From assembly GCA_937924525.1 (NCBI GenBank), contig CALDSU010000007.1:124001-188000 (forward strand): 64,000 bases of DNA, given 5' to 3'. Position 1 is the stretch's first letter. Each line of letters opens with the position of its first letter. Positions 17,663-54,658 of the stretch are shown here, in pieces. Source of the stretch: an uncultured Bryobacteraceae bacterium. Lineage in GTDB: Bacteria > Acidobacteriota > Terriglobia > Bryobacterales > Bryobacteraceae. Under the pieces are notes generated by a model, which had not been told where the DNA came from, did not search any database, and saw only the letters and a program-made list of their open reading frames with translations. The translations under genes were made by a program, and so were the position numbers.

Positions 17663-20032
17663 ATGGAAAAGATCGCCATGTCTTCGTTGACCGCCTGGCT
17701 GGGGTTGCTGTTCTCACTCGGCCCGCTGTGGGCCGCCGAGCGGGTGCTCGACCGCTACGCGGTGGTCGAAGGCGACATCCTGGCGGAGCGCGACGCCATC
17801 GCGGTGGCGGACCCCAACCGGCGCTGGCCCGAAGGCGTGATCCCCTACGTGATTGATCCCGGCATCGCAAACCCGTCGCGGGTTCTGGCCGCCGTGCGGC
17901 ATTGGAACGAAGCGACGCCGGTCCGGCTGGTGGAGCGGGAAGGCCAGCGGAACTACGTGGTGTTCCGGCCGGTGGATTCGGGCTGCTTCTCCGCCATCGG
18001 CATGACCGGCGGCGAACAGTCCATTCTGCTGGCCTCCGGCTGTAGCACGGGAACGATCATCCACGAAATCGGTCACACCGCCGGAATGTGGCATACGCAG
18101 TCGAGGCAGGATCGCGACCGGTACGTGCTCGTCCGGCTGAGCCAGATTACGCCCGACCTCCGCTCGCAATACGCGCAACCGTTTGCCGCCGGAGAGGACA
18201 TCGGACCCTACGACTACATGTCGATCATGCACTACGGCGCAGGGGGAAATCCGCCCAGCATGGAATCGATTCCCCCCGGAATTCCCTTTGGGCAGCGCAG
18301 CACTTTGTCGGCGGGCGACGTCGACGTGATCCGGCGCCTGTACCGCGGCCCGCCGGAGGAGACCGTGATCACGACCAATCCCGAGGGGTTGGCAATCGTG
18401 GTGGACGGCGAGACCGTGGTGACTCCGGTCGTCCGGACGTGGGCGCCGGGATCGCGCCACACCATCGAAGCGCCCGAGTCCGTGATCGAGGGCGACCGCC
18501 GGGTCACCTTTGCCCGGTGGAGCAACGAGGGCGCCCGCCGTCAGAACTTCACCGCGTCCGAGGACGAGACGGTGTTGGTGGCGAACTATCAGGTGTGGTG
18601 GCGGTTGGATGTGATCAGCGAGGCCCCGTCCCGGGGAACCGTGGGTTTTCAAGGCCCTGTGGAAGGTGGTTATGCGCTGTCGGGCACGCAAGTCCGGCTC
18701 GTGGCCGAGCCGGCGCCTGGCCAAGCGTTCCGGGGTTGGGCGAGCGTGCCCGGACGCGCAAGGATCGGCGCCAATCCCTACCCGCTGGTGCTCTATGCGG
18801 GGCGCGCGTCGTTTCGGGCCGAGTTCACGGCCGGCCCCACCGTCACGGTCACCACCGATCCCCCGAACCTGGCGTTGCGGGTGGACGGCGCGCAGTACGT
18901 CTCGCCAGCCATCTTCGAATGGGCGCCCGGAACCACCCACACCATTTCCGCCGAGCAGTCTCGTGATCTGACGCCTGCCGGACGCCGCCTGCGGTTCGAA
19001 CGCTGGAGCGATGGCGGCGCGATTCAGCACACCATCACCGCGCCCGCCGGCGCCGCCGTGTTCACTGCCACGTTCGCCGACGAGCGGCAAGTGCGGGTAA
19101 CCTGGAACCGCAACCTGGGAGCGGTGACGACGGAACCGGAGGCGTCGGATTTCTTCTTCCGGGCGGGGACCAAACTCAAGATCCGCGCCTCGCCTGCGGC
19201 GGGTGCGCTGTTCTACGGATTCTTCGGAGACCGGGTGCACCCCGGTCCCGAGGTGGAGTGGGAGGTGGACGAACCGCTCACGGTCGAGGCGCGTTTCGCC
19301 GCACCACTGACGATTTTCTCCGATGCCGTGCGCAACGCGGCCAGCCTGCTGGGCACGGCGCTGTCGCCGGGCCAAATCGTGACGATCTTCACCGCGGGAG
19401 CCGGTCCGGAAAATGGGACTGTTGCGGCGCCCGACGCCGCGGCTCGCTACCCCACCCGGCTGGATGGCACGGAGCTGCGAGTCAACGGCGTTCCCGCTCC
19501 CCTGCTGTTTGTATCCTCGCGGCAAGTCAATTTCGTCATGCCGTTTGGTCTGCCGTTGGATTCCCGCGCCCCGCGCCTGCAACTGATACGCGACGCCGTG
19601 ACGGGACCGGAAATGCAGCGATTGCTGGCGCGCGCGACCGCCCCTTCGCTGTTTACGCGGAACGGCTCCGGACGCGGGCAAGGCGCCATCCTGAATCAAG
19701 ACGGGACGATCAACGGTCCCACCAATCCGGCATCTCGCGGATCGGTGGTGGTTCTCTATGCCAATGGTTTGGGCCAGACGCGCATTCCGCTGGAGGACGG
19801 GCGGGTGACCAGCGGCCCGCTCTCGCCGCCGGAGGCTCCCATCCGCGTGCGCATCGGCGGGCGAGACGCCGCGGTCGAGTACGCGGGACCGGCGCCCGGA
19901 TTGATCGCGGGCGCTTTCCAGATCAATGTGCGCGTGCCGCCCGAGGTGACACCGTCTTCGGAGACCCCCGTGGTGATTCGCGCCGGTCAGTACGGGAGTC
20001 CGAACGTGGTAACCCTCGCGGTGGGCGAGTAA
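17663..20032 (+). CDS. Secreted astacin-like metallopeptidase with repeat domains and Solibacter-type C-terminal domain
   Basis: A 789-aa secreted protein with a signal peptide ending near 'LGPLWAAE'. The catalytic domain (about 45-230) has the M12A zinc motif H134-E135-x-x-H138-x5-H144 ('HEIGHTAGMWH') and a Met-turn 'SIMHY' (M189). Astacins normally have Glu after the third His; here it is Thr145 ('WHTQSRQDRDRY'). Two related repeats begin near residues 235 ('VTTNPEGLAIVVDGE') and 394 ('VTVTTDPPNLALRVDGAQ'), PEGA/surface-repeat-like. The last ~230 residues carry a TIGR03437-type domain ('VRNAASLLGTALSPGQIVTIF', 'QVNFVMPF', 'VVLYANGLGQT', 'FQINVRVP') known from Solibacter secreted proteins. 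It follows the dioxygenase by 45 nt. A second ATG at 17678 is an equally good start. The physiological substrate is unknown; extracellular protein degradation is likely. Confidence 0.88.
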   Translation: MEKIAMSSLTAWLGLLFSLGPLWAAERVLDRYAVVEGDILAERDAIAVADPNRRWPEGVIPYVIDPGIANPSRVLAAVRHWNEATPVRLVEREGQRNYVVFRPVDSGCFSAIGMTGGEQSILLASGCSTGTIIHEIGHTAGMWHTQSRQDRDRYVLVRLSQITPDLRSQYAQPFAAGEDIGPYDYMSIMHYGAGGNPPSMESIPPGIPFGQRSTLSAGDVDVIRRLYRGPPEETVITTNPEGLAIVVDGETVVTPVVRTWAPGSRHTIEAPESVIEGDRRVTFARWSNEGARRQNFTASEDETVLVANYQVWWRLDVISEAPSRGTVGFQGPVEGGYALSGTQVRLVAEPAPGQAFRGWASVPGRARIGANPYPLVLYAGRASFRAEFTAGPTVTVTTDPPNLALRVDGAQYVSPAIFEWAPGTTHTISAEQSRDLTPAGRRLRFERWSDGGAIQHTITAPAGAAVFTATFADERQVRVTWNRNLGAVTTEPEASDFFFRAGTKLKIRASPAAGALFYGFFGDRVHPGPEVEWEVDEPLTVEARFAAPLTIFSDAVRNAASLLGTALSPGQIVTIFTAGAGPENGTVAAPDAAARYPTRLDGTELRVNGVPAPLLFVSSRQVNFVMPFGLPLDSRAPRLQLIRDAVTGPEMQRLLARATAPSLFTRNGSGRGQGAILNQDGTINGPTNPASRGSVVVLYANGLGQTRIPLEDGRVTSGPLSPPEAPIRVRIGGRDAAVEYAGPAPGLIAGAFQINVRVPPEVTPSSETPVVIRAGQYGSPNVVTLAVGE

Positions 20033-27337: not shown

Positions 27338-27344
27338 TCGACCT

Positions 27345-27350
27345 AGGGTA
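27345..27350 (-). promoter_or_regulatory. TANNNT -10-like element 7 nt before the pccB start
   Basis: TACCCT on the minus strand ends 7 nt before ATG 27337. Candidate leaderless promoter, divergent with the site at 27394. Confidence 0.35.
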
Positions 27351-27393
27351 TCGCACCGAGTCCAAATCCTACCGCCTGTGGATGGACAATCGT

Positions 27394-27399
27394 TAAACT
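27394..27399 (+). promoter_or_regulatory. TANNNT -10-like element 6 nt before the plug-less barrel gene
   Basis: TAAACT ends 6 nt before ATG 27406, which lacks a ribosome site (only GAAAG). Candidate leaderless promoter. Confidence 0.4.
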
Positions 27400-27405
27400 G
27401 AAAGT

Positions 27406-30156
27406 ATGCAGGTATTGAGATGTGCAGCGGCGCTCATAGCCCTGGGAGGAAGCGCCGTGGCTCAGTCTCAGGCCACGGAAACCGAACTCGACCGGGCCAC
27501 CGAGGAGTTCAAGGTGCAAACCCGCAATCTGGGGCTCCGGCCGGACAGCCCGCGCAAAGAAGCGAATGGAGGCCCGAAGAACCGCTGGCACGGCCGCGTG
27601 TTCGAGTATTTCCGCAACAACTTTCTCGACGCGGTCCCGCACGAAATCCGGCAGCGGGGCGGAACCCAGGGCTTCCTGCGGCGGAATCAGTTCGGGTTTA
27701 ACGTAGCCGGCCCGGTGGTGATCCCCAAGGTGTACGACGGTGGGAAGAACACCTTTTTTTCCCTGTCGTACGAAGGCGTCCGCGAGCGGATCGCGCGAAC
27801 GTTCCTCCGCACCATTCCCACCGAACAGGAGCGCACGGGCGACTGGTCGCACGTGGTGGACCTGGCGGGAAATCCCCTCCCCATTTTCGATCCGGCATCC
27901 ACCGCCCGGAATCCCGATTTCGACCCCTCCCGCCCCATCTCGCTCGACAACCTGGAATACCGCCGCGCACAGTTTCCAGGCAACGTCATGCCCGCCTCCC
28001 GGCTCGATTCGGTGGCGCAGGAGGCGCTGGCTTTCTATCCGAACCCGAACGAAGACGAAGGTCCTTTTTTCCGAAATAACTATTTCATCCAGCAGCCCGA
28101 AACCAATACCGCGAACGGCGTGATCGCCAAGGTTGACCAGGTACTGGGAGACAAACACCGCCTGACCCTGGATACCACCCTGTCGAACGGAACCCAACTG
28201 GCGGCACAGTGGTTCCCAACCCCGGCCAACCCTGGGCCGCCGGACCGGCTGTTTTCCACGCGGCGCGGGTCGCTCGAACACGTCTACACCGCGACGCCGC
28301 AGATCGTCAACAATCTACAGTTCGTGGCGAATTCTTCGCGCAACGAGACCGTGGCCGCGCAGTTCCCCGTCTACACGTTCTTGCCCTACTTGTCGATGGG
28401 CCGGTCCTGGCCGGTCTCCCGGAACGCCAATAACCGGTACACCTGGTCGGACGGGCTGTCGGTGCGCCGCGGCAAGCACGCCTTGCGCGGCGGTGGCCAA
28501 TACGGACGGCAGGAGGTGAACACGTTCTGGCCGCAATACCCGTACGGTTTCTATCGGTTCGGCGCCGGTTTGACCAGCCTGCCCGGCATTGTCAATACGG
28601 GCCACGCTTTCGCCAGTTTCCTGCTGGGGATGGCCGAGTACGCTGAGATCAGCGTGGTGCCGCAGCCGTCTTATTTCCGGCGCGGGTCCTGGGAATTCTG
28701 GGCGCGGGACCAATATGAGGTCCGCAAGGGGCTCATGCTCACGGTTGCCCTCTCGGCGGACCGCTGGGGCACGCGGTACGAGAAGTACGACCGCCAGTCG
28801 ACCATCGACCTGGAGGCGATCAATCCCGTCAACGGCCGTCCGGGCGCCCTGGCCGCCGCCAATCGGGGGCGCTGGGGCCGGGCGTTTCAGCCGATCTTCT
28901 GGCGGTTCTCCCCGAGCGCCAGCGTGGCGTGGAATCCGCGCGGCAACGCCAAGACGGTGGTGCGGGCGGGTTATTCGCGCGGCTATTCCCCCCTGCCGAT
29001 TTATACCGGCCAGTGGGGCACCCAGGGGTTCAGCGGCTATCCCACGTTCTTCCCCAGCAATCCGCAACTGGAGCCTGCGGTGGTCCTCTCCCGGGGTTTG
29101 CCTCCGCTGCCCTCCTTTCCGGACCTCCGGCCCGAGGCCGCCAACGACACCGTGGCCGACCTGATCGACACCAGCAGCCGCCAGCCGCTCTACCAGTCCG
29201 CCTCCCTCACCTTGGAGCGGGAGGCGCCCGGTGCGGTGGTGCTCTCCGTCGGCACGACTTACTCCGGCGGCAGAAACCTGCTGGTCAGCAATTCCGCCGC
29301 GGACCCGAACGCCATCCATCCGGATGACCTGATCTTTCGCGATCTGCTGAACAACGAATTGTTCAACCGTTCGCGGCGTCCCTACCCGCAGTTTCGCGGC
29401 TTCGACGTGTATTCGTCTTACCCTATCGGCCGCTACCGCCGCGATGCGGGTTTCCTGCGCGTGGAAAAGCGCGCCTCGGCCGGCCTGTCGCTCAGCGCCT
29501 ATTACGAATGGTCCAAACAGCGCGACGATTACTCCGGGCCTTATGGCAAGCAGGATTTCTTCAACCGCGACAACGAGTGGTCGCTGACCGCGGGCAACGA
29601 ACCCCACCGTTTTCAGATGACCTATGCGTACGAACTGCCGATCGGCGCCAACAAGCCTTTTCTGCGGACGACCGAGTGGTGGCGGTACGTGGTCGACGGC
29701 TGGAGCGTGACCGGAGTCGCGGTGCTGCAATCGGGCAATCCGCTGGCGTTGCGGCCCCAGTTCAACAACACCGGAGGCGCCATTCGCACCCTGAACGTGA
29801 ACGTGGTGCCCGGCGTGGACCCGCGCGTGCCGAACCAGGGTCCGGAGTTGTGGTTCAACCCCGCGGCGTTCGCGCATCCGGACGACTTCGAGATCGGCAA
29901 CGCCTCGCGCACGCACCCCTCGCTGCGCAATCCCGGCAGTTCCAATTACGACCTGACTCTGGCCAAGCGGGTCAGCCTGGCGCCGGACCGCACCTTGGAG
30001 TTCAGCGCCGCCGCGTTCAACGCGCTTAACCACGGCGTGTGGACCGACCCGGATACCGTCATCGGTCCGGCGCACGCGCCTAACGTGAACGCCGGCAGGA
30101 TCATCGGCTCGCGCGGGGGGCGCGTGATTCAGCTAGGCTTGAAAGTCAGCTTCTGA
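27406..30156 (+). CDS. Oar-like outer-membrane beta-barrel protein lacking regulatory and plug domains
   Basis: A 916-aa outer-membrane protein. After a signal peptide ('[14 protein letters not shown]') only about 40 residues remain before the barrel begins at '[19 protein letters not shown]'. In ordinary relatives, such as the gene at 49180-52374, that point lies near residue 235, after a carboxypeptidase-regulatory domain and the TonB plug. Here both are missing. The barrel itself is complete and typical: '[34 protein letters not shown]', '[22 protein letters not shown]', '[23 protein letters not shown]' and the C-terminal '...[11 protein letters not shown]'. Without a plug it cannot act as a normal TonB-gated transporter; a pore, an adhesin or an anchoring platform is possible. 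Its stop codon overlaps the next ATG (TGATG), linking it to a VWFA-type protein. ATG 27406 is the first codon after the promoter-like site. Confidence 0.85.
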
Positions 30157-31085
30157 TGCGCTTGCTGAGTCTGGTTGCGTTGGCATGCGCGGCGATCGCG
30201 TCCGCTCCGCCCCCGCCCGGCAAGCCTCGCATCCACCTGCCCGTCTGGGCGGGAGACGGCCGTCCACTCGAGCCAGGAGAACTGGCGGCCACCCTGAACG
30301 GCCAGCCCGCCACGGTGCTCGAGGTGCGCGCGCCGGAGAGCGAACTGCTGCTGGTGCTGGTGCTCGACTTTACCGAGGACTTAGCCTGGGTGGAACCGGC
30401 CAAGGAGGCGCTGGTGCAACACCTGGCGCGGGTGCCGGAGGGTACACGGGTCGCGGTCATGCGCGCCCAGGACGGGCTGAGCGTCATTCAAGATCCCACG
30501 GCCGACCCCGAGGCCATCGCGGCCGCTATCCGCGGCGTTCCCGTTTCGGGCAAAGCCGGCCTGCTGGAGGCCGTGGAGGCGGTGGCGCGCCTGGGCGATT
30601 CCATCCTCACCCGCCACCGCGTGCGGACCGCCGTCCTGTTCGTCACCGACAGCGACATTTACAACTACCGCGAGGACTTCACGAATCCGGTCATCAACAC
30701 GAGCGATGCGAGCGACCTGAGCCGCCGCTTTCCGGAAGCTCTGATTCAGGATAAGATAGCTCGATTAAAGGAGCGGCTGTCCTTCCGGCAGACGCCGCTG
30801 TTCGTGGTGCACCTGCGCTACCGAAACGACCGGTTGAACGAGGCGTACCAGAACGGTCTGAAGCAACTGGCGGAAGTGATGGCGGGCAGCAGCGATTTTT
30901 GCCGTACCGTCGCCGATATTCCCGCCAGCGTGGGTGCGGCGCTGGAGCGCATCCGGTCGCATTACAGCGTAACCCTGGAGGTAGCCGAGAAGCCAAAGAA
31001 GGCGCTGGAGATCGACTTGAAGGTGAACGGCGGCGAGCGGACCAGCCTGGTTTTCCGCCGGCGGCTCGCCTGGAAACGGGAGTGA
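30156..31085 (+). CDS. VWFA-related secreted protein with altered MIDAS motif
   Basis: A 309-aa exported protein ('LLSLVALACAAIASA' leader) of the acidobacterial VWFA-related type (TIGR03436-like). A short beta domain ('IHLPVWAGDGRPLEPGELAATLNGQPATVLEV') leads into a von Willebrand A domain: 'LLLVLVLDFTEDLAW', then 'GTRVAVMRAQDGLSVIQDPT' and 'TAVLFVTDSDIYNYRED'. The metal-ion-dependent adhesion site normally reads DxSxS; here it is D71-x-T73-x-D75, which may still bind a cation. The C-terminal 'IRSHYSVTLEVAEKPKKALEIDLKV' is the usual end of this family. The gene overlaps the plug-less barrel gene by 1 nt (TGATG) and is followed 3 nt later by a lipoprotein gene. Protein-protein contacts at the cell surface are inferred, the barrel being the obvious partner. 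Confidence 0.82.
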   Translation: MRLLSLVALACAAIASAPPPPGKPRIHLPVWAGDGRPLEPGELAATLNGQPATVLEVRAPESELLLVLVLDFTEDLAWVEPAKEALVQHLARVPEGTRVAVMRAQDGLSVIQDPTADPEAIAAAIRGVPVSGKAGLLEAVEAVARLGDSILTRHRVRTAVLFVTDSDIYNYREDFTNPVINTSDASDLSRRFPEALIQDKIARLKERLSFRQTPLFVVHLRYRNDRLNEAYQNGLKQLAEVMAGSSDFCRTVADIPASVGAALERIRSHYSVTLEVAEKPKKALEIDLKVNGGERTSLVFRRRLAWKRE

Positions 31086-31088
31086 GCA

Positions 31089-31898
31089 ATGCGCAGAGGA
31101 ATCTTTGTCCTGGGGGCGGCGCTGCTCTGGACGGGCTGCCAAAACAAGACCGTCACCGAGCAAGCCCGGCAGATCGAACTGCTCACGGCGGAGAACCGCG
31201 AACTGAAAGCCAAAGTGGAGCGGCAGGCCGCGGAGATTCAGCGGCTGGCGGAAGCGGCGCAGGTGATGCCGGTGGAATCCTTGCCCCGGCCGGCGGGCTC
31301 GAAAGAGCCGTTCCTGCGTGTCGAGGATACGCCCGCGTACCGGAGTCTGAGCCAGTCCCTCGACGAGTCCAACAAGCTGCTGGCTAAGCTGCAACCGCGG
31401 GTCAGAGCCCTCGAGGAACAGATCCAGGTGACCACGGCGGAGAACCAGAAACTGGCCGCGGCCCAAAACGAACTGACGGCGCAACTGGAGAGCGCCCAGG
31501 CCAGTTTGGAGGCTGCCCGGAAAGAAGTGCAGGCGCGGGAGGCCAGACTGGCTGAGTTTGAGGCCACCCTGCGCAAGTTGCGTTCCGAAGCTTCGGCGCA
31601 AGCCCAGAAGTCGGCACAAATCGCGCGCGTCTTGCGGGAGATCGAGGAGATCGAACGCCGCCGCGATACCGCCGCCAATTCGATCCTGGGCCGGTACCGC
31701 GACGTGACCGAGCAGTTCCGCAACCTGGCGGTGGGGTTGGACGGCCAGCGCGGCACCGAGGGCGTGATGAACACCCCGGTGGACCTGTCGCGGATCCAGC
31801 AGTTGATGGCGCTGGCCGACGAGGATCTTCGCAACCTGCGCGCGCTCTCGGCGCAGGCGGCGCAAGCCCAGCGCCGGCTCACCGCGGCGCTGAAGTGA
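31089..31898 (+). CDS. Coiled-coil lipoprotein
   Basis: A 269-aa lipoprotein with lipobox 'WTGC' (C17). Nearly all of the mature protein is heptad-like: 'ARQIELLTAENRELKAKVERQAAEIQRLAEAAQ' (about residues 25-57), a ~40-residue break, then 'NKLLAKLQPRVRALEEQIQVTTAENQKLAAAQNEL' through 'ARLAEFEATLRKL' and a final helix pair ('DLSRIQQLMALADEDLRNLRALSAQAAQAQRRL'). It could form a long helical rod attached to a membrane. It begins 3 nt after the VWFA-type gene, so it is the third member of the barrel module. No enzymatic motif is seen. The closing segment is alanine-rich and may bundle back on itself. Confidence 0.8.
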   Translation: MRRGIFVLGAALLWTGCQNKTVTEQARQIELLTAENRELKAKVERQAAEIQRLAEAAQVMPVESLPRPAGSKEPFLRVEDTPAYRSLSQSLDESNKLLAKLQPRVRALEEQIQVTTAENQKLAAAQNELTAQLESAQASLEAARKEVQAREARLAEFEATLRKLRSEASAQAQKSAQIARVLREIEEIERRRDTAANSILGRYRDVTEQFRNLAVGLDGQRGTEGVMNTPVDLSRIQQLMALADEDLRNLRALSAQAAQAQRRLTAALK

Positions 31899-31928: not shown

Positions 31929-32858
31929 CTACCCGAGCGTGACGCGGGCCCGTAAGTTCGCCACCCCCGCGGTGAAGCGGTCATCGACGACGGTGATCGC
32001 CACCGCATCCTCCAGCCAGTCGTGCCGCCTGCCGTCCGGGTCGTGCGAGGCGGCGGTCAAGGTGTAGTCTCCCTGGCAAAGGTCGCAATGAAAATGGAAC
32101 CGCAGGCGCAGTTGCTGTCCCGCCGCGCAGGGACCCAGCCGTAGGCCCTCGAGCTGGGTGTTGGTGCCGTAGACGTCCAGGCCGATCCGGTTGCGCAGGA
32201 GGATGCCGATCACCGGATCACCTACCGGTTCGTGGAACAACACGGAGAGCCGCACTTCCACCTGTTCTCCGCTGCGCCAGACCGCCGTCGGCCGTCCTTG
32301 CGCGCCCAGGGTCTCGATCGCGGTCAGCTCCGCGCGGCGGTCGCCCTGGCGCTCGACGGGACTCACCGGCAGCGAGATCGTCTCGCCCCACTCGCGGAGC
32401 CGCTGGGCGATGTATCCGCGATATCTCGCCAGGACGGTCGCCGGGTCGCCACGGAACCCAAGCGTGCCTTCCTGCAACCACCACACCTCATCGCAAACAC
32501 GCAGCAGCAGATCTTCGTCATGCGATGAAAGCAGCACGGTGGCTCCGCCCCGCCGGAGCCGGTCGAGTGCGATCACCGCGCGCGCTTTCACTGCCGCGTC
32601 GTGCCGGGCCAGCGTCTGGTCGATCGCCAGCAGGTCCGCCGCCGCGAAGTTCAGGGCGTCGTCCGGACCCAGCCAGCGGCGGATCTTGCCGGCCGACACC
32701 GAGCCGCTGGAAGGTTTCCACAGCCCCGCCGCGATCCGCAACAGCTCGCCCTTTCCCGCGCCGTCTTCGCCGAGCACCCCCACCACCGCGCCGTCGGGCG
32801 CGCTGGCGGTAAAGCCCTGGAGCGGCAACGCCGTCACCTTCTTAAACGCAATCGCCAT
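31929..32858 (-). CDS. Degenerate Wzt-like ABC protein with C-terminal glycan-binding-type domain
   Basis: A 309-aa protein related to polysaccharide-export ABC ATPases (Wzt). The N-terminal ~160 residues are a shrunken nucleotide-binding domain. The Walker A is 'GEDGAGKGE' (K36 followed by Gly37, not Ser/Thr). The whole helical region with the LSGGQ/'YSSGM' signature is missing between about residues 60 and 72. Walker B 'LLAIDQ' has Q81 where the catalytic Glu should be, and a H-loop 'SSHDED' (H112) remains. The C-terminal half (about 165-300: 'TAIETLGAQGRPTAVWRSGEQVEVRLSVLF', 'VIGILLRNRIGLDVYGTNTQLEGL', 'DYTLTAASHD') is the Wzt_C beta-sandwich that in characterised Wzt proteins recognises the capped end of an O-antigen. 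No permease gene is near. It probably binds a glycan without hydrolysing ATP (inference). A TATTCT box ends 8 nt before ATG 32858. Divergent from the methyltransferase gene, 58 bp away. Confidence 0.8.
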   Translation of the reverse strand: MAIAFKKVTALPLQGFTASAPDGAVVGVLGEDGAGKGELLRIAAGLWKPSSGSVSAGKIRRWLGPDDALNFAAADLLAIDQTLARHDAAVKARAVIALDRLRRGGATVLLSSHDEDLLLRVCDEVWWLQEGTLGFRGDPATVLARYRGYIAQRLREWGETISLPVSPVERQGDRRAELTAIETLGAQGRPTAVWRSGEQVEVRLSVLFHEPVGDPVIGILLRNRIGLDVYGTNTQLEGLRLGPCAAGQQLRLRFHFHCDLCQGDYTLTAASHDPDGRRHDWLEDAVAITVVDDRFTAGVANLRARVTLG

Positions 32859-39465: not shown

Positions 39466-39920
39466 CCCGCTCCCCATAACACAAGTGCGGCATAGCATCC
39501 GGCGGCCACGTCGTCGGCGACGATTCCCCATCCGCCACCTAGGCGCTCCAGGCGGCGGCAGGGCGGGGGTTTCCAGATGTCGAAAAGCCGGAACAGCCCG
39601 AACGCCGCGAACCAGGAAACCGGATGGTCCAGGTTCGCGCCGAGCAAGGCGACCCACTGCCCCAACATTTCATCGATGACAACGAAGCCGGGATCCTTCT
39701 GTTCCCGGCGGGCCGCCGCCACCTGCGACGACCAGACAGCCAAAGGAGCGGCCAACAACGCCAACAAGGCCAGCGAACATTTGCCGCCAGCGGCGTAGCG
39801 TGCGAGCGCCCACGCCGGCAGCAACGCCGCCGCCGCGCCCACGGTTCCGGGCGCCCACCGGACGTGACCACACCCGAAGCCGCTGGCCAGCAGCAGGGCC
39901 AGTTTTTCACTCTTCGGCAT
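39447..39920 (-). CDS. pgpA: Phosphatidylglycerophosphatase A
   Basis: An integral membrane phosphatase of 157 aa that removes phosphate from phosphatidylglycerophosphate to give phosphatidylglycerol. The conserved '[26 protein letters not shown]' start, '[16 protein letters not shown]' (the acidic catalytic motif, with D and E), '[25 protein letters not shown]' and '[20 protein letters not shown]' are family signatures in order. Four hydrophobic stretches are present. ATG 39920 ('[12 protein letters not shown]') matches family N-termini and overlaps the yacG end by 14 nt; a longer frame upstream is inside yacG and was rejected. It belongs to the rimO-yacG-pgpA-propeller run. Confidence 0.9.
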
Positions 39921-40092
39921 GGGGATTCGGACCGGGTCTGCCCGGGACCGGCCCCGCCGGTTCTCCGGGAATCGCATACGCGCCCGAAGCCCACTGGCCG
40001 AGGTCGATCAGCCGGCACCGATCGCTGCAAAACGGGAAATGGGACTCCTGCGCCGGGACGGGCCTCCGGCAAATGGGGCAGCGAACGGTCAT
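39907..40092 (-). CDS. yacG: Zinc-binding DNA gyrase inhibitor YacG
   Basis: A 61-residue zinc protein. The four ligands are in '[10 protein letters not shown]' and '[20 protein letters not shown]', a CxxC-x14-CxxxC arrangement typical of YacG, which in E. coli binds GyrB and blocks gyrase. The tail after '[11 protein letters not shown]' is Pro-rich and unstructured, also normal. Its ATG overlaps the rimO stop (ATGA), and its end overlaps the pgpA start, so it is translated as part of a tight operon. Short genes like this are easily missed. Confidence 0.88.
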
Positions 40093-41498
40093 ACCGTGGC
40101 CAGCAACGGTTGAATATTGATGAGCGAGGAGTGGGCCGCCACCCCGGGGCGCTGCGGCTCTCCCGGCTCCAACGGCAAGGCGACGCCCACCACATCGTAG
40201 TCGTGGGTTTCCGTAATCCGGAGGCGGCGCATCTGTCCCGCCGCCAGCGCTTCCCCCTGCAAATCGTTGATCAGCGTCACCCCGTCGATTTCCGGCGCCT
40301 GCGTGGCCATGCGGGCTACCCACAACAGTTCCGTTTCGGGCGAAGGCCCTTCCACCAGCACGGTGACTTCCTCGCCGGCGAGCGCCCGGTTCTTCGCGCG
40401 CGCCACTTTCCGCTGCACGGCCAGCAGCCGCCGTTTCCGGTTGTAGATGGTGCGGGCGTCCACTTTTCCGTCCAAATGGTAAGCGGCGCTGGTGTCTTCA
40501 TCGGAATACGAGAAAACGCCCAGGCGGTCGAACTGCGCCTCCCGCACAAACTGACAAAGCAGTTCGAAGTCCGCTTCCGTCTCGCCCGGAAAACCGACAA
40601 TCATGCTGGTGCGGATGGCCACGCCGGGCACGGTGCGGCGGATCTTTTCGATCAGGCGCAGGAAGATGTCTCCAGACGCGCCGCGCCGCATCCGCTTCAG
40701 CACCGCGGGACTGGCATGCTGGAGCGGCATGTCGAGGTACTTGACCAGCGCAGGGTGCTCCGCCAGGGTATCGATCAGCCGCGTAGTCACCCGATTCGGG
40801 TAGGCGTAGAGGAAGCGGATCCACTTGGCCTGTGGCGTCTCAATGCGCGCCAGCCGGCCGAGCAGGTGCGCCAGGCCGTCGCGCAGTCCCAAATCCTCGC
40901 CGTAGGACGTCGTGTCCTGCCCGACCAGGTTGATTTCGCGAATCCCCCGCTCAAACAGCCGTGTGCATTCGCTCACCAGCGACTCAAACCTGCGGCTACG
41001 AAACCGGCCGCGGTAATGGGGGATGACGCAGAACGTGCAGGGATGGTCGCAGCCCTCGGCGATCTTCACATACGCGTAGTGCTTTGGCGTGGACAGCACC
41101 CGGGGCGTCAGGTCGTGGTAGAGATATGGCTCCGGAGATCCGGTCTGGCCGGGCTGGTCTTCACAGACCGCAATGATCCGGTCCAGTTCATTGGTGCCGA
41201 TCACCGCGTCCACTTCGGGCATTTGCTCCCGGATCTGAGCGCCATACCGTTCAACCAGACAGCCGGCGACGACCAGTTTGCGGGCGCGCCCGGTTTCCTT
41301 GTACCGGGCCATCTCGAGGATGGCATTGACGGACTCTTCCTTGGCCGGGTCGATGAAGCTGCACGTGTTGACCACCAGCGCATCCGCCTCTTCCGGCAGG
41401 TGCGTCAGTTCATGTCCGCGCGCCACCAGCGCGCCCATCATGACTTCGCTGTCGACCAGGTTCTTGGGACAACCCAAGCTCACGAATCCGATTTTCAA
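40089..41498 (-). CDS. rimO: Ribosomal protein S12 methylthiotransferase
   Basis: Radical-SAM enzyme of 469 aa that adds a methylthio group to an Asp of ribosomal protein S12. The UPF0004 domain starts at once ('[20 protein letters not shown]') with cluster cysteines C10, C46 and C80. The radical-SAM motif C150-x3-C154-x2-C157 is '[22 protein letters not shown]'-like, and the C-terminal TRAM domain ('[10 protein letters not shown]', '[10 protein letters not shown]'-like region) binds RNA or substrate. '[14 protein letters not shown]' and '[17 protein letters not shown]' are RimO signatures separating it from MiaB. The end ('[23 protein letters not shown]') is a little longer than usual. ATGA overlap with yacG. 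The two clusters it needs are supplied by Fe-S assembly factors such as the ErpA-like protein at 12241. Confidence 0.95.
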
Positions 41499-41606
41499 GC
41501 GGAGCGCTACCTTTGCGGGAGATCTTCTTCAGGATACCATCGGGCGCGGCGGAAACGGCCTCCGGGGCGGTGCGAAACGGGGGAAGGGCGGAGCCCACGC
41601 CCCTGT

Positions 41607-41906
41607 TCACGCCTGCGCCAGGGTTTCCAGAATCCCGGAAATCCGCAGCCGGTTCGCATGAAAGCCATGATGGGCGAGCACGCGCCGGACTTCGTCCAGG
41701 TCTCCCGCGTAGGCCGGGAACTCGACCAGGGTGGGGCCGGCCCCGTGAGGATGGAAAATCTCCGGATTGATGGGGAAGCGGGCTCCCGCCAGCGCTTCCA
41801 GCAGTTCTTCCAGTTCGTGCGCGGGCACTTCCACGGATACGGAAACCAACTCTCCGCTCTCTCCGTAAACAGCGCGGTGGACAGGAAGATTGCGCCAGAC
41901 GCTCAT
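41607..41906 (-). CDS. Conserved hypothetical protein with ACT-like strand pattern
   Basis: A 99-aa soluble protein I do not recognise. 'LVSVSVEVPAHELEELLEALAGARFPINPEIFHP' followed by 'TLVEFPAYAGDLDEVRRVLAHHGFHANRLRI' has the beta-alpha-beta-beta-alpha-beta order of small ferredoxin-like (ACT-type) domains. There are no cysteines and no signal peptide. It lies 108 nt upstream of rimO on the same strand, so it may be the first gene of that operon. A hairpin with a T-rich tail sits in its leader region (41945-41990). Coding is supported by even, structured composition and by the clean fit between neighbours. Confidence 0.6.
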   Translation of the reverse strand: MSVWRNLPVHRAVYGESGELVSVSVEVPAHELEELLEALAGARFPINPEIFHPHGAGPTLVEFPAYAGDLDEVRRVLAHHGFHANRLRISGILETLAQA

Positions 41907-41944
41907 TCAGGTCCTCCAGCATCCGGCGTATCGGCCGTAAAAGA

Positions 41945-41990
41945 ACAAAAAGCCCTGAGACTTTGGTCAACGCATCCAAAGGCCTCAGGG
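41945..41990 (-). terminator. Terminator-like hairpin in the leader of the rimO unit
   Basis: On the minus strand CCCTGAG and CCTTTGG at 41990-41976 pair with CCAAAG and CTCAGGG at 41966-41953 around a 9-nt loop (one bulge), followed by CTTTTTGTTCTT. It lies upstream of the first gene (41906) and not after a gene, so it could be an attenuator or the end of a small RNA. Confidence 0.55.
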
Positions 41991-42245
41991 TCTTCGCAAA
42001 AGCCAGTTTCGACCGATCGCCTTTAGCACTTTTTTACGTGGTTGCAAGTAGCCGGGCCTGACGAACAGACCCTAAATCAATCCACGACACCTAGAGGCTA
42101 ACATGGCGAGGAGGGCGTTGGCAAGGATTTTCTGGACCGGGAGCGAGGCGCTGCGAACCGGGTCCAGCCCCTGGCCACGGTCCGCGCGGCAGGCTTTCCC
42201 GGAACCGATCCATCCCGCACTCGAACGGGAACCGTTCCGGTGCCG

Positions 42246-42260: not shown

Positions 42261-42281
42261 ATGCCAAGTCCAGCCCCATGA
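42261..42281 (+). CDS. Six-codon leader ORF overlapping the next start codon
   Basis: ATG 42261 begins a reading frame encoding MPSPAP that stops at TGA 42279-42281. The stop overlaps ATG 42278 of the following gene (ATGA). The main gene has no ribosome site of its own ('AGTCCAGCCCC' precedes it), so translation may be handed on from this mini-ORF. Very short, therefore uncertain. Confidence 0.35.
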   Translation: MPSPAP

Positions 42282-44644
42282 GTCATCCCACCCCGAGCTG
42301 GCCGCATCTCTACCTGGCGGTCGCCCTCACCACCCTGGCCACGCTATTGCTGGAGTTGTCCCTGACGCGCGTGTTCTCCGTGGTCTTCTATTACCACTTC
42401 GCGTTCCTGGCCATTTCCATCGCCTTGTTCGGGCTGGGCGCGGGCGGCGTATTTTCGTACGCGATGGCCGCGCGCCGGGACCGGTTCGCCGGACGGCTGG
42501 GCTGGCTAAGCGCCGGGAATGGGCTCTTGGTGCTGGTCTCTCTCGCGGTGGTTCTGGGGCAGCACGGGGAACTCTCCAACCAGCGCCTCGCCTTGATCTA
42601 CTTCACGACGGCGCTGCCGTTCTTCGTGTCGGGCATCGTGGTTTCCACGGCCATCGCCGAGACGGTGGAACGCGTGCATCGCGTCTATTTCTTCGACCTG
42701 CTCGGCGCCGCGGCGGGTTGCCTGCTGCTGGTGCCCTTGCTGAATCAGCTTGGCGGGCCGAATACCGTCATCGCCGCCGGGGTGCTGTTTGCCGCGGCCG
42801 GCGCGGTGTGGCACCACATGGCGGGCTCCGGGCCGGGGCGCGCGGCCACGGTAGCCCTGGCGCTGGGGCTGGTGCTGCTGGCCGCGTTGAACATCAAGCT
42901 CAAAGTGTTGGACGTCAAGTACGCCAAGGGCCAGAAGCTGGAAAAGGAAGTCATGGTGCGCTGGAACAGTTTCTCGCGCATCGCCGTCGCGCCCGAACGC
43001 GAATCGGGAGTCCCGCTGATCTTCATCGACGCCGACGCCTCGACCGGCATCGCGAACTTCGACTTCGACCGCCTGACCGAGCGCGAGCGCCGCGATCTGT
43101 TGTGGCAGGGGCCCGGCCTGCCGTATGGCATCCGGCCTGGCGCCAAGACCCTGATCATCGGGCCGGGAGGTGGTTGGGATGTCGCGCGCGCGCTGGCCGG
43201 CGGCAGCCGGGATGTGACGGGCGTCGAGATCAATCCGCTCATTGGCCGCGTGATCATGGGCGAACGCTACCGCGAACTCGGCCAACACTTCCCCGGCCTG
43301 GTCCACAACGTCTTCACGCGTCCCGAAGTGAGCCTGCACGTGGAGGAGGGGCGCAGTTTCATCCGGCGCAGCCGGGAGAAGTACCAAGTCTTGCAGGCCA
43401 CCCTGGTGGACACCTGGGCGTCCACCGCCGCCGGCGCCTTCGCGCTTTCGGAGAACAACCTCTACACCATCGAGGCATTCCAGGATTACCTGAGCCACCT
43501 CACCGACGACGGGCTGCTCGCCTTCACGCGGTGGGGATTCGATCCGCCCCGCGAGTCGCTTCGCCTGGTCTCGCTGGCCATGGAGGCGCTCGCGCGCCTC
43601 GGCGAACGCGAGCCCTGGCGGCACGTCATTATCGCCCGGGAGGGGTCGGTCCGAGGATGGGGCGCCCGGGATACGGTGATCTTTGCCCGCAAGCCTCTTT
43701 CCCACGGCGACCTGGCGCGCGCCCGCCAGGTGATCGAAGCCGGGCGCCTGGAGGCGGTCTACCTGCCCGACGAGCCGGGCGATTCCCCCTTTGCGCAACT
43801 GCTGAAAGCGCCCGACCCGACCGCCTTTCGCGCGCGCTACCCCTTCGATATTTCGCCGGTTTCCGATAATCGGCCTTTCTTCTTCTACACCGTGCAGCCG
43901 CGGGATGTGCTGGAGTTCATCCGCTCGGCCTCCACCCTCAGCGCGGATTACAAGATCAATCGCGCCGTGCCGTTGCTGTTCGGGCTGCTGCTGACCAGCC
44001 TGCTGGCCACGCTGGTGATGCTGGCGCTGCCGCCCCTGGTCCTCCGCACCCGCCTGCCCCGGGACCGGAACGCCCTCGCGTTCCTGGCGTACTTCCTGCT
44101 CGTCGGCATCGGTTACATCCTGGTGGAAATCGCGCTGATTCAGCGGTTCGTCTTGTTTCTCGGCCACCCGACCTATGCTTTGACGGTGGTGATCTTCTCC
44201 ATGCTGGTGTCCAGTGGCTTGGGCAGTGCGTATAGCCGGCGGCTTTTGCGGGAGCAGGATGCGCGCCTGGCGGCCGCGCTGGCGGGGGTTTGCGTGCTGG
44301 TCGCCGTGCTGGCGGCGGTGACAGGCCCCCTGTTCACCACCGCGGTGGGATGGCCCCTTCCCTGGAAAATGGTCATCGCGGTCCTGGTCCTGTTCCCGCC
44401 GGGTTTCCTGATGGGGATGCCGTTTCCCGCCGGCCTGGCGAGACTCACCCGTCTGCACGAGCCGTCGGTACGCTGGGCCTGGTCGCTGAATGCGGCGGCC
44501 AGCGTGCTTGGCTCCGTCCTCGCGATGGCGCTGGCGATCTTTCTTGGGCTGCTGCAAACGCTCCTGATCGGCGCGGGCGCCTACCTGCTGGCGATCGTAT
44601 TGCTGCGCGCGTCCCGGACGGGAACCGCGGCCGCCCGCGCCTAA
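42278..44644 (+). CDS. Membrane-embedded spermidine-synthase-like protein
   Basis: A 788-aa inner-membrane protein with about 6 N-terminal and 8 C-terminal hydrophobic segments flanking a soluble Rossmann domain (about 225-540). That domain resembles spermidine synthase/SAM-type aminopropyltransferases: 'TLIIGPGGGWDVARALAGGSRDVTGVEINPLIG' is the nucleotide-binding glycine motif with the acidic loop 'VEIN', and 'EEGRSFIRRSREKYQVLQATLVDTWAS' corresponds to the catalytic region, where the usual D-x-x-D/'DAFDP'-like pair is poorly conserved. Its membrane parts ('LATLLLELSLTRVFSVVFYYHFAFLAISIALFGLGAGG' first) are the SpeE-like fused transporter type. Function is unknown; polyamine synthesis in the membrane is doubtful because of the altered active site. 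Translation probably depends on the mini-ORF at 42261. Confidence 0.82.
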   Translation: MSHPTPSWPHLYLAVALTTLATLLLELSLTRVFSVVFYYHFAFLAISIALFGLGAGGVFSYAMAARRDRFAGRLGWLSAGNGLLVLVSLAVVLGQHGELSNQRLALIYFTTALPFFVSGIVVSTAIAETVERVHRVYFFDLLGAAAGCLLLVPLLNQLGGPNTVIAAGVLFAAAGAVWHHMAGSGPGRAATVALALGLVLLAALNIKLKVLDVKYAKGQKLEKEVMVRWNSFSRIAVAPERESGVPLIFIDADASTGIANFDFDRLTERERRDLLWQGPGLPYGIRPGAKTLIIGPGGGWDVARALAGGSRDVTGVEINPLIGRVIMGERYRELGQHFPGLVHNVFTRPEVSLHVEEGRSFIRRSREKYQVLQATLVDTWASTAAGAFALSENNLYTIEAFQDYLSHLTDDGLLAFTRWGFDPPRESLRLVSLAMEALARLGEREPWRHVIIAREGSVRGWGARDTVIFARKPLSHGDLARARQVIEAGRLEAVYLPDEPGDSPFAQLLKAPDPTAFRARYPFDISPVSDNRPFFFYTVQPRDVLEFIRSASTLSADYKINRAVPLLFGLLLTSLLATLVMLALPPLVLRTRLPRDRNALAFLAYFLLVGIGYILVEIALIQRFVLFLGHPTYALTVVIFSMLVSSGLGSAYSRRLLREQDARLAAALAGVCVLVAVLAAVTGPLFTTAVGWPLPWKMVIAVLVLFPPGFLMGMPFPAGLARLTRLHEPSVRWAWSLNAAASVLGSVLAMALAIFLGLLQTLLIGAGAYLLAIVLLRASRTGTAAARA

Positions 44645-49179: not shown

Positions 49180-52100
49180 TTAGAAGCGAATCCGCGCACT
49201 GAACAGCATGGTACGCCCGCCGGGGTCGGTCGTGTTCTGCCCGAAGATCGGGCTGTTCATCGTCGCAACCGGATTGCCGAAATTCCGGTGGTTGAAACCA
49301 TTGATCCAGTCGGCGCGAATGCCGATTTTCCACCGTTCGGTCACGTCGAACATCTTGGCCAGCGAGAAGTTGAATAGTTGGATCCCCGGTCCTCGGAACG
49401 TGTTGCGGCCCAGGTTGTCCGGCCCGACCGGAAAGGCGCGGGAGTTGGCCAGCGGTAAACCGTTCGGGGCCAAAAAGGTGGTCACAATGCCCGAACCGCT
49501 GATGGAAGTGGTAAATGTGCGGTAGTTTCCAGTCACTGGATCGAGAGTAATCGAACCGTTGGGATTGTAACTCGGGCGGTGGGGCGCCGCCGTGCCGGTG
49601 CCTGCGGTGTCGACGTTGGTCCGGATCGTGAACGGTTGTCCGCTTTGAAATTCGGTAAATCCGTTGAACTTCCAACCGTCAGTGACCTGTTTCCAGACGG
49701 CTTTGCCCCTCACGCCGGGCAAGTCCCAACTGTAGTAGAACGCCAGCCGATGCGGGACATCGAACGCCGCGCGGCTCCACTCGTTACGGTAATTCTTGTA
49801 GTCCTGCGGAACCTGCGGACTGGAACTGGTAATCGCGGCAACACCCAGCGACTCGTCGTTGTCGCTGAAATTTGCGCTCCAGGTGTAGTTTCCGCCAATG
49901 GCGAAGCCATGGGACAGCCGTTTGTCGAGCTTCAGGTACATCCCGTGGTACTCACCCTTGGCCGTCGATTCGATGGTGACCCGGCTGCCATAAGCGGGAT
50001 TCTCCCGGCGGCTAACCGGGAACGCGGCGCTGGGCACCAGACCCGCGATGCTGTTCGGATTGCCGGTGCTGCGCACGGTGGCTGCCTGAGCCTCCGTCAA
50101 GATGCCGGGGTTCAACTGGCCCTGCCGAATCGCGGCGTAGGCGGAAGAACCTGTATAGCCGATCTCGAAGAGATAGTGCCGGGCAAACTGCCGTTGGATC
50201 GTCAGGCTCCAGAAGCGGGTGGTGGGGCTCTGGAGGTCCGAAGGGCTGTTCACGTAAGTAGCGTAAGGGTTGAAGACGGGCGCGGTTACCACGGGCGGCA
50301 AGAGGGTGGGCCACGCTCCGGCCACGGCGGCGCGGTCAAGCTCGCTGACTACCACGCGAGGGTAGTTGCTCTGGTTGACAGTCAGGATGTTGTAAAACAG
50401 GACATCGTACGTCATCCCAAAGCCGCCGCGGATCACGGTCTGGCCTTGCCCAAGCAGTTTGCCCGACGGGCTCCAGGCGAACCCGATCCTCGGCGCCCAG
50501 TTGTTGGTATCCTTCTGCACCGGTCCGGGCACCCCGGCGTTCAGGCTTTCTTGATCCCTGGCGCCGAAGAACCCGAACGGCACGCCGTTCAACTCGTACC
50601 GCATCCCGATGTTTAAGGTCAGATCCTTGGTGACCTTGAAGTCATCCTGGATAAAGTAGAACTGCGATGTCTGGCGCGCGTCCCAGGTGGCGGTGTTGAC
50701 CGCCTGCCGAAGCGAGGTGGGCCGGTTGTTCAGGAAAAGTTCCAGATTGTCGAAAGTCCAGGTGCCTTTACTGTCAAAGGCCGAGTTATTGAACAGGCGC
50801 AGGCGGCGGATGTCCGCCCCGAACTTGATCGAATGCTTGCCGCGCAGGTAGGTGGCTACATCCTGAAACTGAAAGGTATTCTGAATGCGCCCCTGCGGGA
50901 AGTTGCTCAGGCCGCCAATGGTGAACAGCCCGCTGATGGTCGTGGTGGGGGTCTTGGGATCGTTCTCGGGGAAAGCCAGGTTACGGCGGATGTAAGCCGA
51001 CCGGAACTCGTTGACGAAGGTGGGCGAGACCGTACGGGTGTGGCTGACGGCATGATTCTGGCCCAGAATCGTCTGTGCTCCGGAGAACTTACTGCCAAAC
51101 TGCAGGTTGCTAACGTAGTCCGGATTGTTGCGCTTATCGATTTGCATCCGGTAGTTCAGCTGGTCCTTCTGCGTGAGAAGGTGATCCACGCGATGGGTGG
51201 TGTACCAAAAATCGTGGGGGTTGGCCAACGGGAGATTGATGGTGCCGACCTGAATAGGCACACCATTCGCGGTGATGTTGCGGACGTTCGTATAGTTGGC
51301 GACTTTCGGGTGAATTTCATCCCGCAGGAACGCAATGCCATCCAAAGCGGCCTGGCGTTGCGCCGGCGTCACGCCCGGGGGAAGCGGCACGGAGGCCAAC
51401 GCCGCAAAGCCCGTCGGCGTCGGGATCGTCGCGTTCGAGGAGTTTCGTCCGTCGGGCGCTTCCCGCCGTCGGTTGGCTTCAATCAAGCTGAAGAAGAACG
51501 TGCGGTTCTTCACGATGGGTCCGCCGATGAGGCCGCCAGCCTGGTTTTGCACAAACCGAGGCGTGCTGTTCACGCCCGCGCGCTTGTTGATCAGGCTCAC
51601 CGGCTCCATCCAATTGGCGCGGTAGTAATCGAACACTTCCCCCGTCCAGCGGTTGCTGCCGCTGCGGGTAAACGCCTGGATCTGGGCGCCGCTGTTGCGC
51701 CCGAACTCTGCCGAGTATGCCTGGGTCTGGACCTGGAATTCCGCCAAGGCTTCCGGAATCACCCGGTTGCTGGCCAGCGTCACGCTGGCGTCGTTGTTGT
51801 CCGCACCGTCCAGCATGAAATTGTTATTCCTCGCGCGCTGGCCATTTACGGCAATGCCGGTGGACCCCGGGGCGCGATTCGCCGTCGGGGCGAGCAGCGC
51901 CAGTACGTTGACGTCGCGCGTGTTCCCGGTGAGCGGAACCTGCTGGAGGATGCGCATATCGATCTTGCGCTCAATGGTCGCGGAAGCCTTGGACAACTCG
52001 ATCCCCGCAGGTGCTTCCACTACTTCGACTGTGGTGGCCGCGGTGGCTACCGCGAGGGTCTGGTTGAGGACCACCTCTTGCGTCCCGGTGACCACCACCC

Positions 52101-54633: not shown

Positions 54634-54642
54634 CCGGTGCTG

Positions 54643-54648
54643 TACGAT
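54643..54648 (+). promoter_or_regulatory. TANNNT -10-like element 10 nt before addB
   Basis: TACGAT ends 10 nt before ATG 54659. A weak AGAAG lies in between, so the gene may be leaderless or have a very short leader. Confidence 0.3.
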
Positions 54649-54658
54649 AGAAGCTCGC

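Follow-up and report, generated by a model that had tools for sequence, protein, structure and literature searches.

A plug-less barrel of the TonB-receptor type and a VWA-fold protein form a conserved gene pair in Acidobacteriota

TonB-dependent receptors are defined by a plug domain and by coupling to TonB. In a 64,000-nucleotide stretch of DNA from an uncultured Bryobacteraceae bacterium (hereafter the window), we identified a gene for a receptor-type barrel that lacks the plug, followed directly by a gene for a protein with a predicted VWA fold, and found that both the domain loss and the pairing are conserved in other Acidobacteriota. This conserved pair suggests an unnamed envelope complex that is no longer driven by TonB; searches of the open-licence literature for the system or for plug-less receptors listed no description of this operon. 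The barrel stop overlaps the VWA start by 1 nt, and 3 nt separate the VWA gene from a third gene, encoding a coiled-coil protein (Table 1), as an earlier note on this DNA had stated. The three-gene order, which that note had proposed to look for elsewhere, recurs in other Acidobacteriota.

Table 1. Features of the barrel-VWA locus, in window coordinates
Feature	Positions	Strand	Description
Gap between divergent carboxyltransferase start and barrel start	27338-27405	.	68 nt; presumed promoter region
Barrel gene	27406-30156	+	916 aa; only PF25183 found; 22 predicted strands; C-terminal Phe
Barrel residues 1-20, signal-peptide-like	27406-27465	+	Hydrophobic; model helix 3-15
Barrel residues 21-61, replacing regulatory domain and plug	27466-27588	+	Predicted helix 27-41; family motif ELxxAxEEFKxxTRxLGLRxDSP
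VWA-fold protein gene	30156-31085	+	309 aa; signal peptide; without lipobox
VWA residues 171-194, top conservation in the protein	30666-30737	+	YREDFTNPVIN-S-D--DLSRRFPE
Coiled-coil protein gene	31089-31898	+	269 aa; lipobox LLWTGC in the window; accessory third gene

The Pfam match of the barrel protein spans residues 59-909 (E 5e-138), while a comparison receptor encoded at 49180-52374 on the minus strand matches PF25183 plus CarboxypepD_reg plus, weakly, Plug (16.6 bits, under its cut-off). Profile alignment of the two begins at barrel residue 22 and receptor residue 200, so that about 180 N-terminal residues are absent, close to the loss of some 190 residues of regulatory and plug domains that the note had claimed. 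A regulatory domain lies upstream in 64 of the 65 PF25183 proteins of this genome, the exception being this barrel; the count used 66 of 103 CarboxypepD_reg matches, and none of the 37 omitted lies near the barrel gene. In the same type of alignment, the residues A-x-x-EF-x-x-x-T of the N-terminal segment fall on the plug end of the plugged paralogs. Orthologous barrels also start with a hydrophobic stretch, their starts having been picked partly by hydropathy. By eye, the N-terminal linker shows no conserved TonB-box-like segment, TonB boxes being variable between receptors.

What remains is predicted to be a receptor barrel. An AF2 model (pLDDT 86, pTM 0.79) has 22 strands by manual count, and all 50 matches listed by Foldseek are TonB-dependent receptors or transporters (best 6ofr, E 1e-16, TM 0.44 by query), so the modelled fold resembles that of a TonB receptor. 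Searching solved structures with the barrel sequence profile gave no match, and the fold search was used instead. Residues 1-60 of the model are of lower confidence (pLDDT 42-72 in ten-residue blocks). The inner face of the barrel is polar, and conservation of inward versus outward strand residues (0.64 versus 0.60) was uninformative.

Several lines of evidence indicate that a plug was not overlooked. The carboxyltransferase gene, which starts at 27337 and runs on the opposite strand, leaves no space in which a barrel start could have been missed. Neither Plug nor CarboxypepD_reg was matched at E<=0.1 in any of 40 family members, which besides PF25183 gave one weak unrelated match and no POTRA domain. 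Because the starts of these 40 were chosen by script, we searched upstream with a regulatory-plus-plug profile, which had recovered all 15 receptors withheld as positive controls, the weakest of them at 132 bits. On the barrel strand it found nothing upstream at any of 139 loci, a set that includes the window, some copies and four loci with less than 700 nt upstream. Its sole match, at locus L168, was to a distinct receptor gene encoded on the opposite strand. With regard to redundancy, 120 of the loci reduce to 93 distinct 200-residue core segments, as named loci overlap other genomes, and 19 distant loci fall outside this comparison. A missed start, a frameshift and an upstream plug are therefore rejected, and the domain loss is real and fixed: neither an exon-like upstream start or frameshift nor full-length barrels at the same locus were found.

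Since two domains are gone that 64 paralogs retain, the gene could be read as a decayed receptor or an assembly artefact without function. However, its reading frame is open, the mean column identity across 54 sequences is 62%, and at E<=1e-150 the barrel has orthologs in 52 of the 80 other family genomes, versus 5 of 80 for a full-length control receptor (P0001). This conservation refutes truncation or decay, and we give a functionless locus virtually no chance.

The pairing is equally consistent. Among 81 family genomes (orthologs called at a best E<=1e-160), 50 carry both genes and 28 carry neither; the VWA gene never occurs by itself, and the three genomes with only the barrel each have a contig end interrupting the barrel locus. 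Of 41 family loci, 39 have the VWA gene next after the barrel, as do 74 of the 80 named loci; the family exceptions are L089, where a second barrel follows in tandem, and L098, where the barrel start is absent. At loci whose contig continues, the VWA gene follows in nearly all, the exception being the first tandem barrel of L089. The two genes are at most 5 nt apart in 32/39 family and 61/74 named loci, counts that are approximate because starts were chosen by script (signal-peptide hydropathy and start codon, plus ribosome site for family loci), and the spacing in distant families frequently exceeds that in Bryobacteraceae, reaching roughly 0.8 kb in L139. For the wider survey, a single-sequence scan of genome contigs found no relatives, and an alignment-based scan kept the best 80 of 316. 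Two of the records with the operon, KBS 96 and Bryobacterales F-183, seem to come from isolates. Chance neighbourhood is rejected, as the pair persists while other neighbours change. Outside the pair, the gene found most often nearby (17 of 40 loci) is divergently oriented, lies about 1.9 kb upstream and is taken by us to be LOG-like, and another upstream gene set recurs at up to 9 of 40.

In the barrel tree, the 44 plug-less barrels that were sampled group in a single clade apart from 31 plugged paralogs (SH-aLRT 99). The plugged set comprised 30 paralogs and P0001 from a single genome, one of its members (L252) having a very long branch; the plug-less sample left out copies and named barrels of at most 880 residues and took 24 random family loci plus the window. 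(L143, a cut barrel, was left out of N-terminal counts.) The backbone of the VWA tree matches that of the barrel tree (families f8, f49/f82, f2 and f1+f5). A single plug-less clade with a matching VWA backbone indicates that barrel and VWA protein are an old, co-inherited pair. These findings bear on the idea that the barrel is a permanently open, large, ligand-selective porin of receptor origin, the VWA protein being co-transcribed with it but otherwise unrelated. Such a porin would have no plug, and none was found at any locus tested, and its conserved loops would carry selectivity, but an unrelated passenger fits poorly with a VWA gene never seen without the barrel in the 81 family genomes, barrel-only cases that are contig-end cuts, and agreeing trees; we consider it quite improbable.

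The VWA protein was modelled with high confidence (AF2, mean pLDDT 92.8) and aligned with 4fx5 in VIA-align (Z 18.6, rmsd 2.6, 178 aligned), giving a predicted VWA Rossmann-type fold. PF13519 matches 42 of 52 orthologs at E<=0.01 (window protein 25.2 bits, cut-off 27), and a sequence-profile search of solved structures gave weak matches only. The acidobacterial VWFA family TIGR03436, which has the VWA fold in common, matches 36 of 52 at E<=0.01, yet the window protein, at 22.9 bits, is under its curated cut-off of 81.25. The MIDAS metal site of VWA domains has the motif DxSxS. The canonical motif occurs in none of the 52 orthologs, unlike TIGR03436: D71 is kept in all, and serine never occupies the motif's fifth position, where 45 orthologs have D, five have E, one has Y and one has G. 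A different metal site may be present. A second departure from TIGR03436 is an invariant FTNPVIN loop, in a segment that shortly follows a TD motif at 164-165; N177, P178, N181, D184, D187, S189 and R190 are identical in 52/52. Residues 171-190 form a low-confidence loop in the lone model (pLDDT 65). The protein has no lipobox in 51 of 52 orthologs. There are 20 VWA_2 matches in the genome itself, and Acidobacteriota VWA proteins form divergent paralog groups (PMC3174227).

The third protein is accessory and dispensable. No copy of its gene turned up in three family genomes and a tandem-barrel genome (L073, L084, L090, L089/L098), or in the 13 regions examined in families f2, f8, f49 and f82. 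The earlier note had called it a lipoprotein, a term that suits the protein here and in the genome most closely related, whereas in the family at large the protein is mostly transmembrane-anchored: the lipobox pattern occurs in 6 of 66 named orthologs, of which only that of L151 seems genuine, the other five lying inside long hydrophobic helices. Mean hydropathy over 19 residues is at least 1.6 at 61 of the 66 named loci, suggesting that the protein is anchored in a membrane and that its coiled coil lies in the periplasm. The transmembrane helix of TonB/TolA-type proteins shows an SHLS spacing, S-x3-H-x6-L-x3-S, which was found in 0/66 third proteins. In this the system differs from motor-coupled vWA force transducers. 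These likewise couple an envelope VWA protein to other envelope parts, as proposed here, but are membrane-tethered and encoded beside tolQ-like motor genes (PMC12204202), while the window VWA protein has a signal peptide.

An anchored coiled coil, the missing plug and long, heavily conserved loops would all suit a barrel that transports nothing: sealed by its loops, it would hold the VWA and coiled-coil proteins and bridge the outer membrane to the periplasm and inner membrane. We regard this as unlikely; several lineages that keep the barrel-VWA pair were not found to have the coiled-coil gene, and a polar-lined 22-strand barrel would be a costly anchor.

In order to locate what is specific to the plug-less group, we counted group-specific positions along the barrel, with loops and turns labelled by strand order in one model, not by coordinates. 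Conservation of this kind lies mainly in the predicted extracellular loops, not at the periplasmic rim: 77 of 377 aligned loop positions are group-specific, compared with 31/321 in strands, 0/43 in periplasmic turns and 1/41 in the N-terminal segment. An initial count, which took positions unaligned to paralogs as specific (loops 105/474, strands 32/324, turns 2/56, N-terminal segment 1/42), gave the same result with larger numbers. Conservation in the plug-less group (six sequences) is higher in loops than in strands (0.68 versus 0.57), an excess not shown by the only receptor group used as a control (five sequences; 0.62 versus 0.63). As the loops, which are predicted to be long, and not the periplasmic rim are conserved, a barrel closed by its own loops is no less likely than one closed by a partner, for which the note had suggested the VWA domain or the rod, and the near absence of group-specific positions at the rim and in the N-terminal segment counts against a periplasmic gate.

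Conservation on the predicted outer face, and its excess in loops, could also reflect a secretion or adhesin pair, with the VWA protein as cargo that the barrel exports or displays at the surface via its loops and the N-terminal helix as a resting plug. VWA surface adhesins are known, among them CglB, which is held by outer-membrane barrels. Two-partner secretion systems of the FhaC/TpsB type have a two-gene arrangement like that of the barrel-VWA pair. FhaC also has a helix and linker before the barrel, and the helix is a dynamic plug (PMC4490367), and secretion of PopC requires Oar (PMC6434023). On the other hand, FhaC/TpsB proteins are Omp85 barrels of 16 strands with POTRA domains, and here 22 strands are predicted and no POTRA was found. 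Moreover, an energy source is not evident, the VWA protein almost always lacks a lipobox, its invariant loop resembles a site for a fixed partner rather than a variable adhesin, and the third protein is left unexplained. We judge export or display rather unlikely.

The explanation that we favour, tentatively and at a little short of an even chance, is a TonB-uncoupled barrel in which the loops, the short N-terminal helix and a VWA partner in the periplasm have taken over the role of the plug. Close relatives among known systems are Oar-type TonB-dependent transporters, which share the PF25183 (OMP_b-brl_4) barrel and the predicted 22-strand receptor fold, and whose homology to the window barrel reaches the last plug residues. 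They have CarboxypepD_reg and a plug, whereas the window barrel has neither and no recognised TonB box; the plug-less barrels also differ in being more conserved in loops than in strands and in being nearly always followed by a VWA gene. We propose that an Oar-type receptor shed its regulatory domain and plug in a single event; with the plug and any TonB box lost together, the barrel would no longer be TonB-driven. The 22-strand barrel would have been retained, its closure shared by its own unusually conserved loops, by the N-terminal helix as a remnant of the plug end (compare the FhaC plug helix), and by the VWA protein, docking through its invariant loop as a plug in trans or a gate. The result would be a two-protein envelope module, old in Acidobacteriota, which the coiled-coil protein joined in the Bryobacteraceae lineage and which, where present, it would tether across the periplasm.

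Separate polypeptides for barrel and closing part have an engineered parallel: a soluble FpvAI plug supplied in trans partly complements a plug-less FpvAI barrel (PMC10994204). In that case the native plug closes the barrel, and here the proposed closing part is the VWA protein. Against a plug in trans, the barrel lumen may be too small to take an entire VWA domain. The wider gene spacing in distant families likewise counts against the favoured explanation. In Myxococcus, Oar without both plug and N-terminal extension failed to accumulate (PMC6434023), and so such barrels are not always viable without these parts.

A receptor barrel thus persists without its plug across several Acidobacteriota families and classes, and has been retained even as a typical neighbouring receptor comes and goes, as judged from the one full-length control receptor tested. 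This provides a natural test case of what besides a plug can close a 22-strand barrel, and the VWA protein gains an operon partner and a candidate conserved interface. It is possible, though on balance doubtful, that the locus specifies a new outer-membrane machine, a receptor barrel free of plug and TonB that is closed and gated by a separate VWA protein together with its own loops and linked, in Bryobacteraceae, to the inner membrane through a coiled-coil protein. If the proposal is true, barrel and plug would here be naturally divided between two proteins, the gate having an unrelated fold.

In the window, the barrel gene, the VWA gene and the gene for a coiled-coil protein lie where the earlier note had described them, with the VWA start overlapping the stop of the barrel gene by 1 nt and a 3-nt gap separating the VWA gene from the third gene. 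The note's further claim, that the barrel has lost its plug, withstood a check for a missed upstream start: a carboxyltransferase gene on the opposite strand starts at 27337, so there is no space for a hidden plug upstream of the barrel. PF25183 is the sole Pfam domain matched in the plug-less barrel, and the receptor at 49180 matches CarboxypepD_reg, weakly Plug, and PF25183. In the window's genome, CarboxypepD_reg lies upstream in 64 of the 65 PF25183 proteins (69 matches, with 4 proteins split), 118-244 residues ahead of the listed barrel match, and the sole exception is the plug-less barrel. This count used 66 of the genome's 103 CarboxypepD_reg matches, and none of the remaining ones falls near the plug-less barrel gene.

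Features of the window discussed in the text
Feature	Position	Strand	Remark
Astacin-family metalloprotease	17663-20032	+	InlB B-repeat-like match further along
Plug-less barrel	27406-30156	+	
VWA protein	30156-31085	+	
Third (coiled-coil) protein	31089-31898	+	
Wzt-type protein, short ABC ATPase part	31929-32858	-	Pfam match covers profile positions 2-44 of 137 only
Two adjoining open frames, ~800 aa each	39624-42026, 42278-44644	+	may or may not be genes
Full-length receptor	49180-52374		
PD-(D/E)XK nuclease protein	54332-57844	+	4-nt overlap with UvrD-type helicase gene
UvrD-type helicase with nuclease domain	57841-61257	+	

Elsewhere in the window, the Wzt-type protein, in which we could not make out the usual ATPase signature segment by eye, is probably a degenerate ATPase fused to a Wzt C-terminal domain. 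The nuclease and helicase genes are, by appearance, what we take to be an ordinary AddAB-type repair pair, and neither adjoining open frame has a Pfam match at E≤1e-5.

Because the Pfam Plug model is weak for PF25183 proteins (at E≤0.1 it matches 49 times in the genome), we built our own plug profile, which detected 15 of 15 held-out receptors. We examined 40 regions from the family (Bryobacteraceae) together with the window, 20 distant regions and the 80 named loci that ranked best among 316 found. Among 139 loci, the window's included, this profile found no plug on the barrel strand; its single match was to an adjacent receptor encoded on the other strand. Every barrel whose start is present has a hydrophobic N-terminus, then a linker a few tens of residues long and then the first barrel motif, which falls at residue 57-83 in 79 of the 80 named loci (the pattern missed L207). 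The domain loss is fixed.

The pairing with the VWA gene is conserved as well. Orthologs of the barrel (best E≤1e-160) and of the VWA protein occur in 53 and 50 of the 81 family genomes, respectively, with both in 50, the barrel only in 3, the VWA protein only in none and neither in 28 (Fisher p 1e-18, ignoring the kinship of the genomes); all three barrel-only genomes reach a contig end there. At E≤1e-150 the barrel is matched in 52 of the 80 other family genomes, versus 5 of 80 for a single full-length control receptor. The six named loci lacking a VWA match stop at the barrel or shortly past it, and the one exception in the family set is the first of two tandem barrels in L089, where the second barrel takes the place of a VWA gene. 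In that genome the second of the tandem plug-less barrels (L089:9357-12149 and G024:C4:175200-177731) runs to a contig end, and a separate contig (L098) opens with a barrel end and a VWA gene. Approximately 1.9 kb upstream of the barrel, 17 of 40 family loci (L085, for example) carry a divergent gene, presumably LOG-like by motif; we read this as conserved synteny, with no functional link evident.

Of 250 genomes of the class, 59 contain a match to a VWA profile, as do 4 of 396 in a draw from the phylum; two of those four lie outside the class. In all 20 distant regions fetched, the VWA gene follows the barrel in the same orientation (approximate gap <350 nt in 19, ~0.8 kb in L139). The third gene was found in 0 of 13 regions from families f2, f8, f49 and f82. 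Two loci titled Arcobacter sp. (L200) and Acidimicrobiia (L172) carry Bryobacteraceae-like operons and are probably mislabelled metagenome bins.

In a tree with 31 plugged paralogs, all from the window's genome, the plug-less barrels of 44 loci group together as a single clade (SH-aLRT 99). They branch in the order f8, f49/f82, f2 and then Bryobacteraceae, and the midpoint-rooted VWA tree (43 rows) shows the same backbone. The barrel tree places family f5 within Bryobacteraceae; in the VWA tree the two make up a joint, unresolved group in which f5 is one branch among several. The third gene was found in 35 of 41 Bryobacteraceae loci (not found in L073, L084, L090 or the two G024 contigs L089 and L098, with L096 cut by a contig end) and in 7 of 7 f5 regions (L142-L147, L150). 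The nesting of f5, together with its third gene, suggests horizontal transfer of the three-gene operon as a whole to f5; we infer from these sequences that the third gene was gained in the Bryobacteraceae lineage before that move.

In a model of the barrel built with 54 sequences (pLDDT 86, pTM 0.79) we count 22 strands; residues 27-41 form a helix, and residues 1-60 are poorly determined. The hits listed by Foldseek are TonB-dependent receptors (best E 1e-16, TM ~0.44 by query length). An N-terminal A-x-x-EF-x-x-x-T segment aligns to the plug end of plugged paralogs and is therefore probably a plug remnant, now predicted to be helical. With loops assigned by strand order, extracellular loops hold 105 of 140 group-specific conserved positions when positions unaligned to paralogs are included; among aligned positions only, such positions number 77/377 in loops, 31/321 in strands, 0/43 in periplasmic turns and 1/41 in the N-terminal part. 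In a matched comparison of six sequences, loops are more conserved than strands (0.68 versus 0.57), and in a single control receptor group of five the values are 0.62 and 0.63. This outer-face conservation is also compatible with display of the VWA protein on the cell surface, which weighs against a gate; display or secretion of the VWA protein is a reading that we consider rather unlikely.

The VWA protein model (pLDDT 92.8) shows a VWA domain with flanking strands, and the DxSxS site is changed in 52 of 52 VWA proteins. The most conserved stretch, YREDFTNPVIN-S-D--DLSRRFPE, lies shortly past the TD motif and takes in the two ten-residue blocks that the model places with least confidence (pLDDT 65); a partner-binding loop would be expected to look like this, and we infer that it may be one. 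Of 66 named orthologs of the third protein, 61 contain a hydrophobic helix (19-residue mean ≥1.6). The description of this protein as a lipoprotein holds for the window and its nearest relative (L059/L151, one contig) but not for the other third proteins read, which lack a convincing signal.

The sequence data establish the domain loss and its fixation, the pairing, the predicted folds and the places where conservation lies; the mechanism goes beyond them. We tentatively favour, as possible rather than probable, a barrel that would be uncoupled from TonB, since the plug that bears the TonB box is gone, and that would be closed by its own loops, the short helix and the VWA partner, with the coiled-coil protein as a putative tether. 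An engineered plug-less FpvAI barrel regained partial function when the plug was given as a separate protein (PMC10994204), so closure by a split-off part can work, and an N-terminal helix can plug a barrel, as in FhaC (PMC4490367). Oar without both N-terminal parts fails to accumulate (PMC6434023), which counts against such a gate. That the barrel is a sealed anchor is unlikely, and that it is a free porin very improbable.

The barrel, VWA domain and coiled coil are individually of known kinds. Open-licence papers yielded no description of the barrel-VWA combination or of a conserved natural plug-less receptor barrel. The barrel lacks two defining features of TonB-dependent transporters, so we treat it as a derived relative rather than a member of that class; together with its VWA partner it may constitute a new kind of machine.
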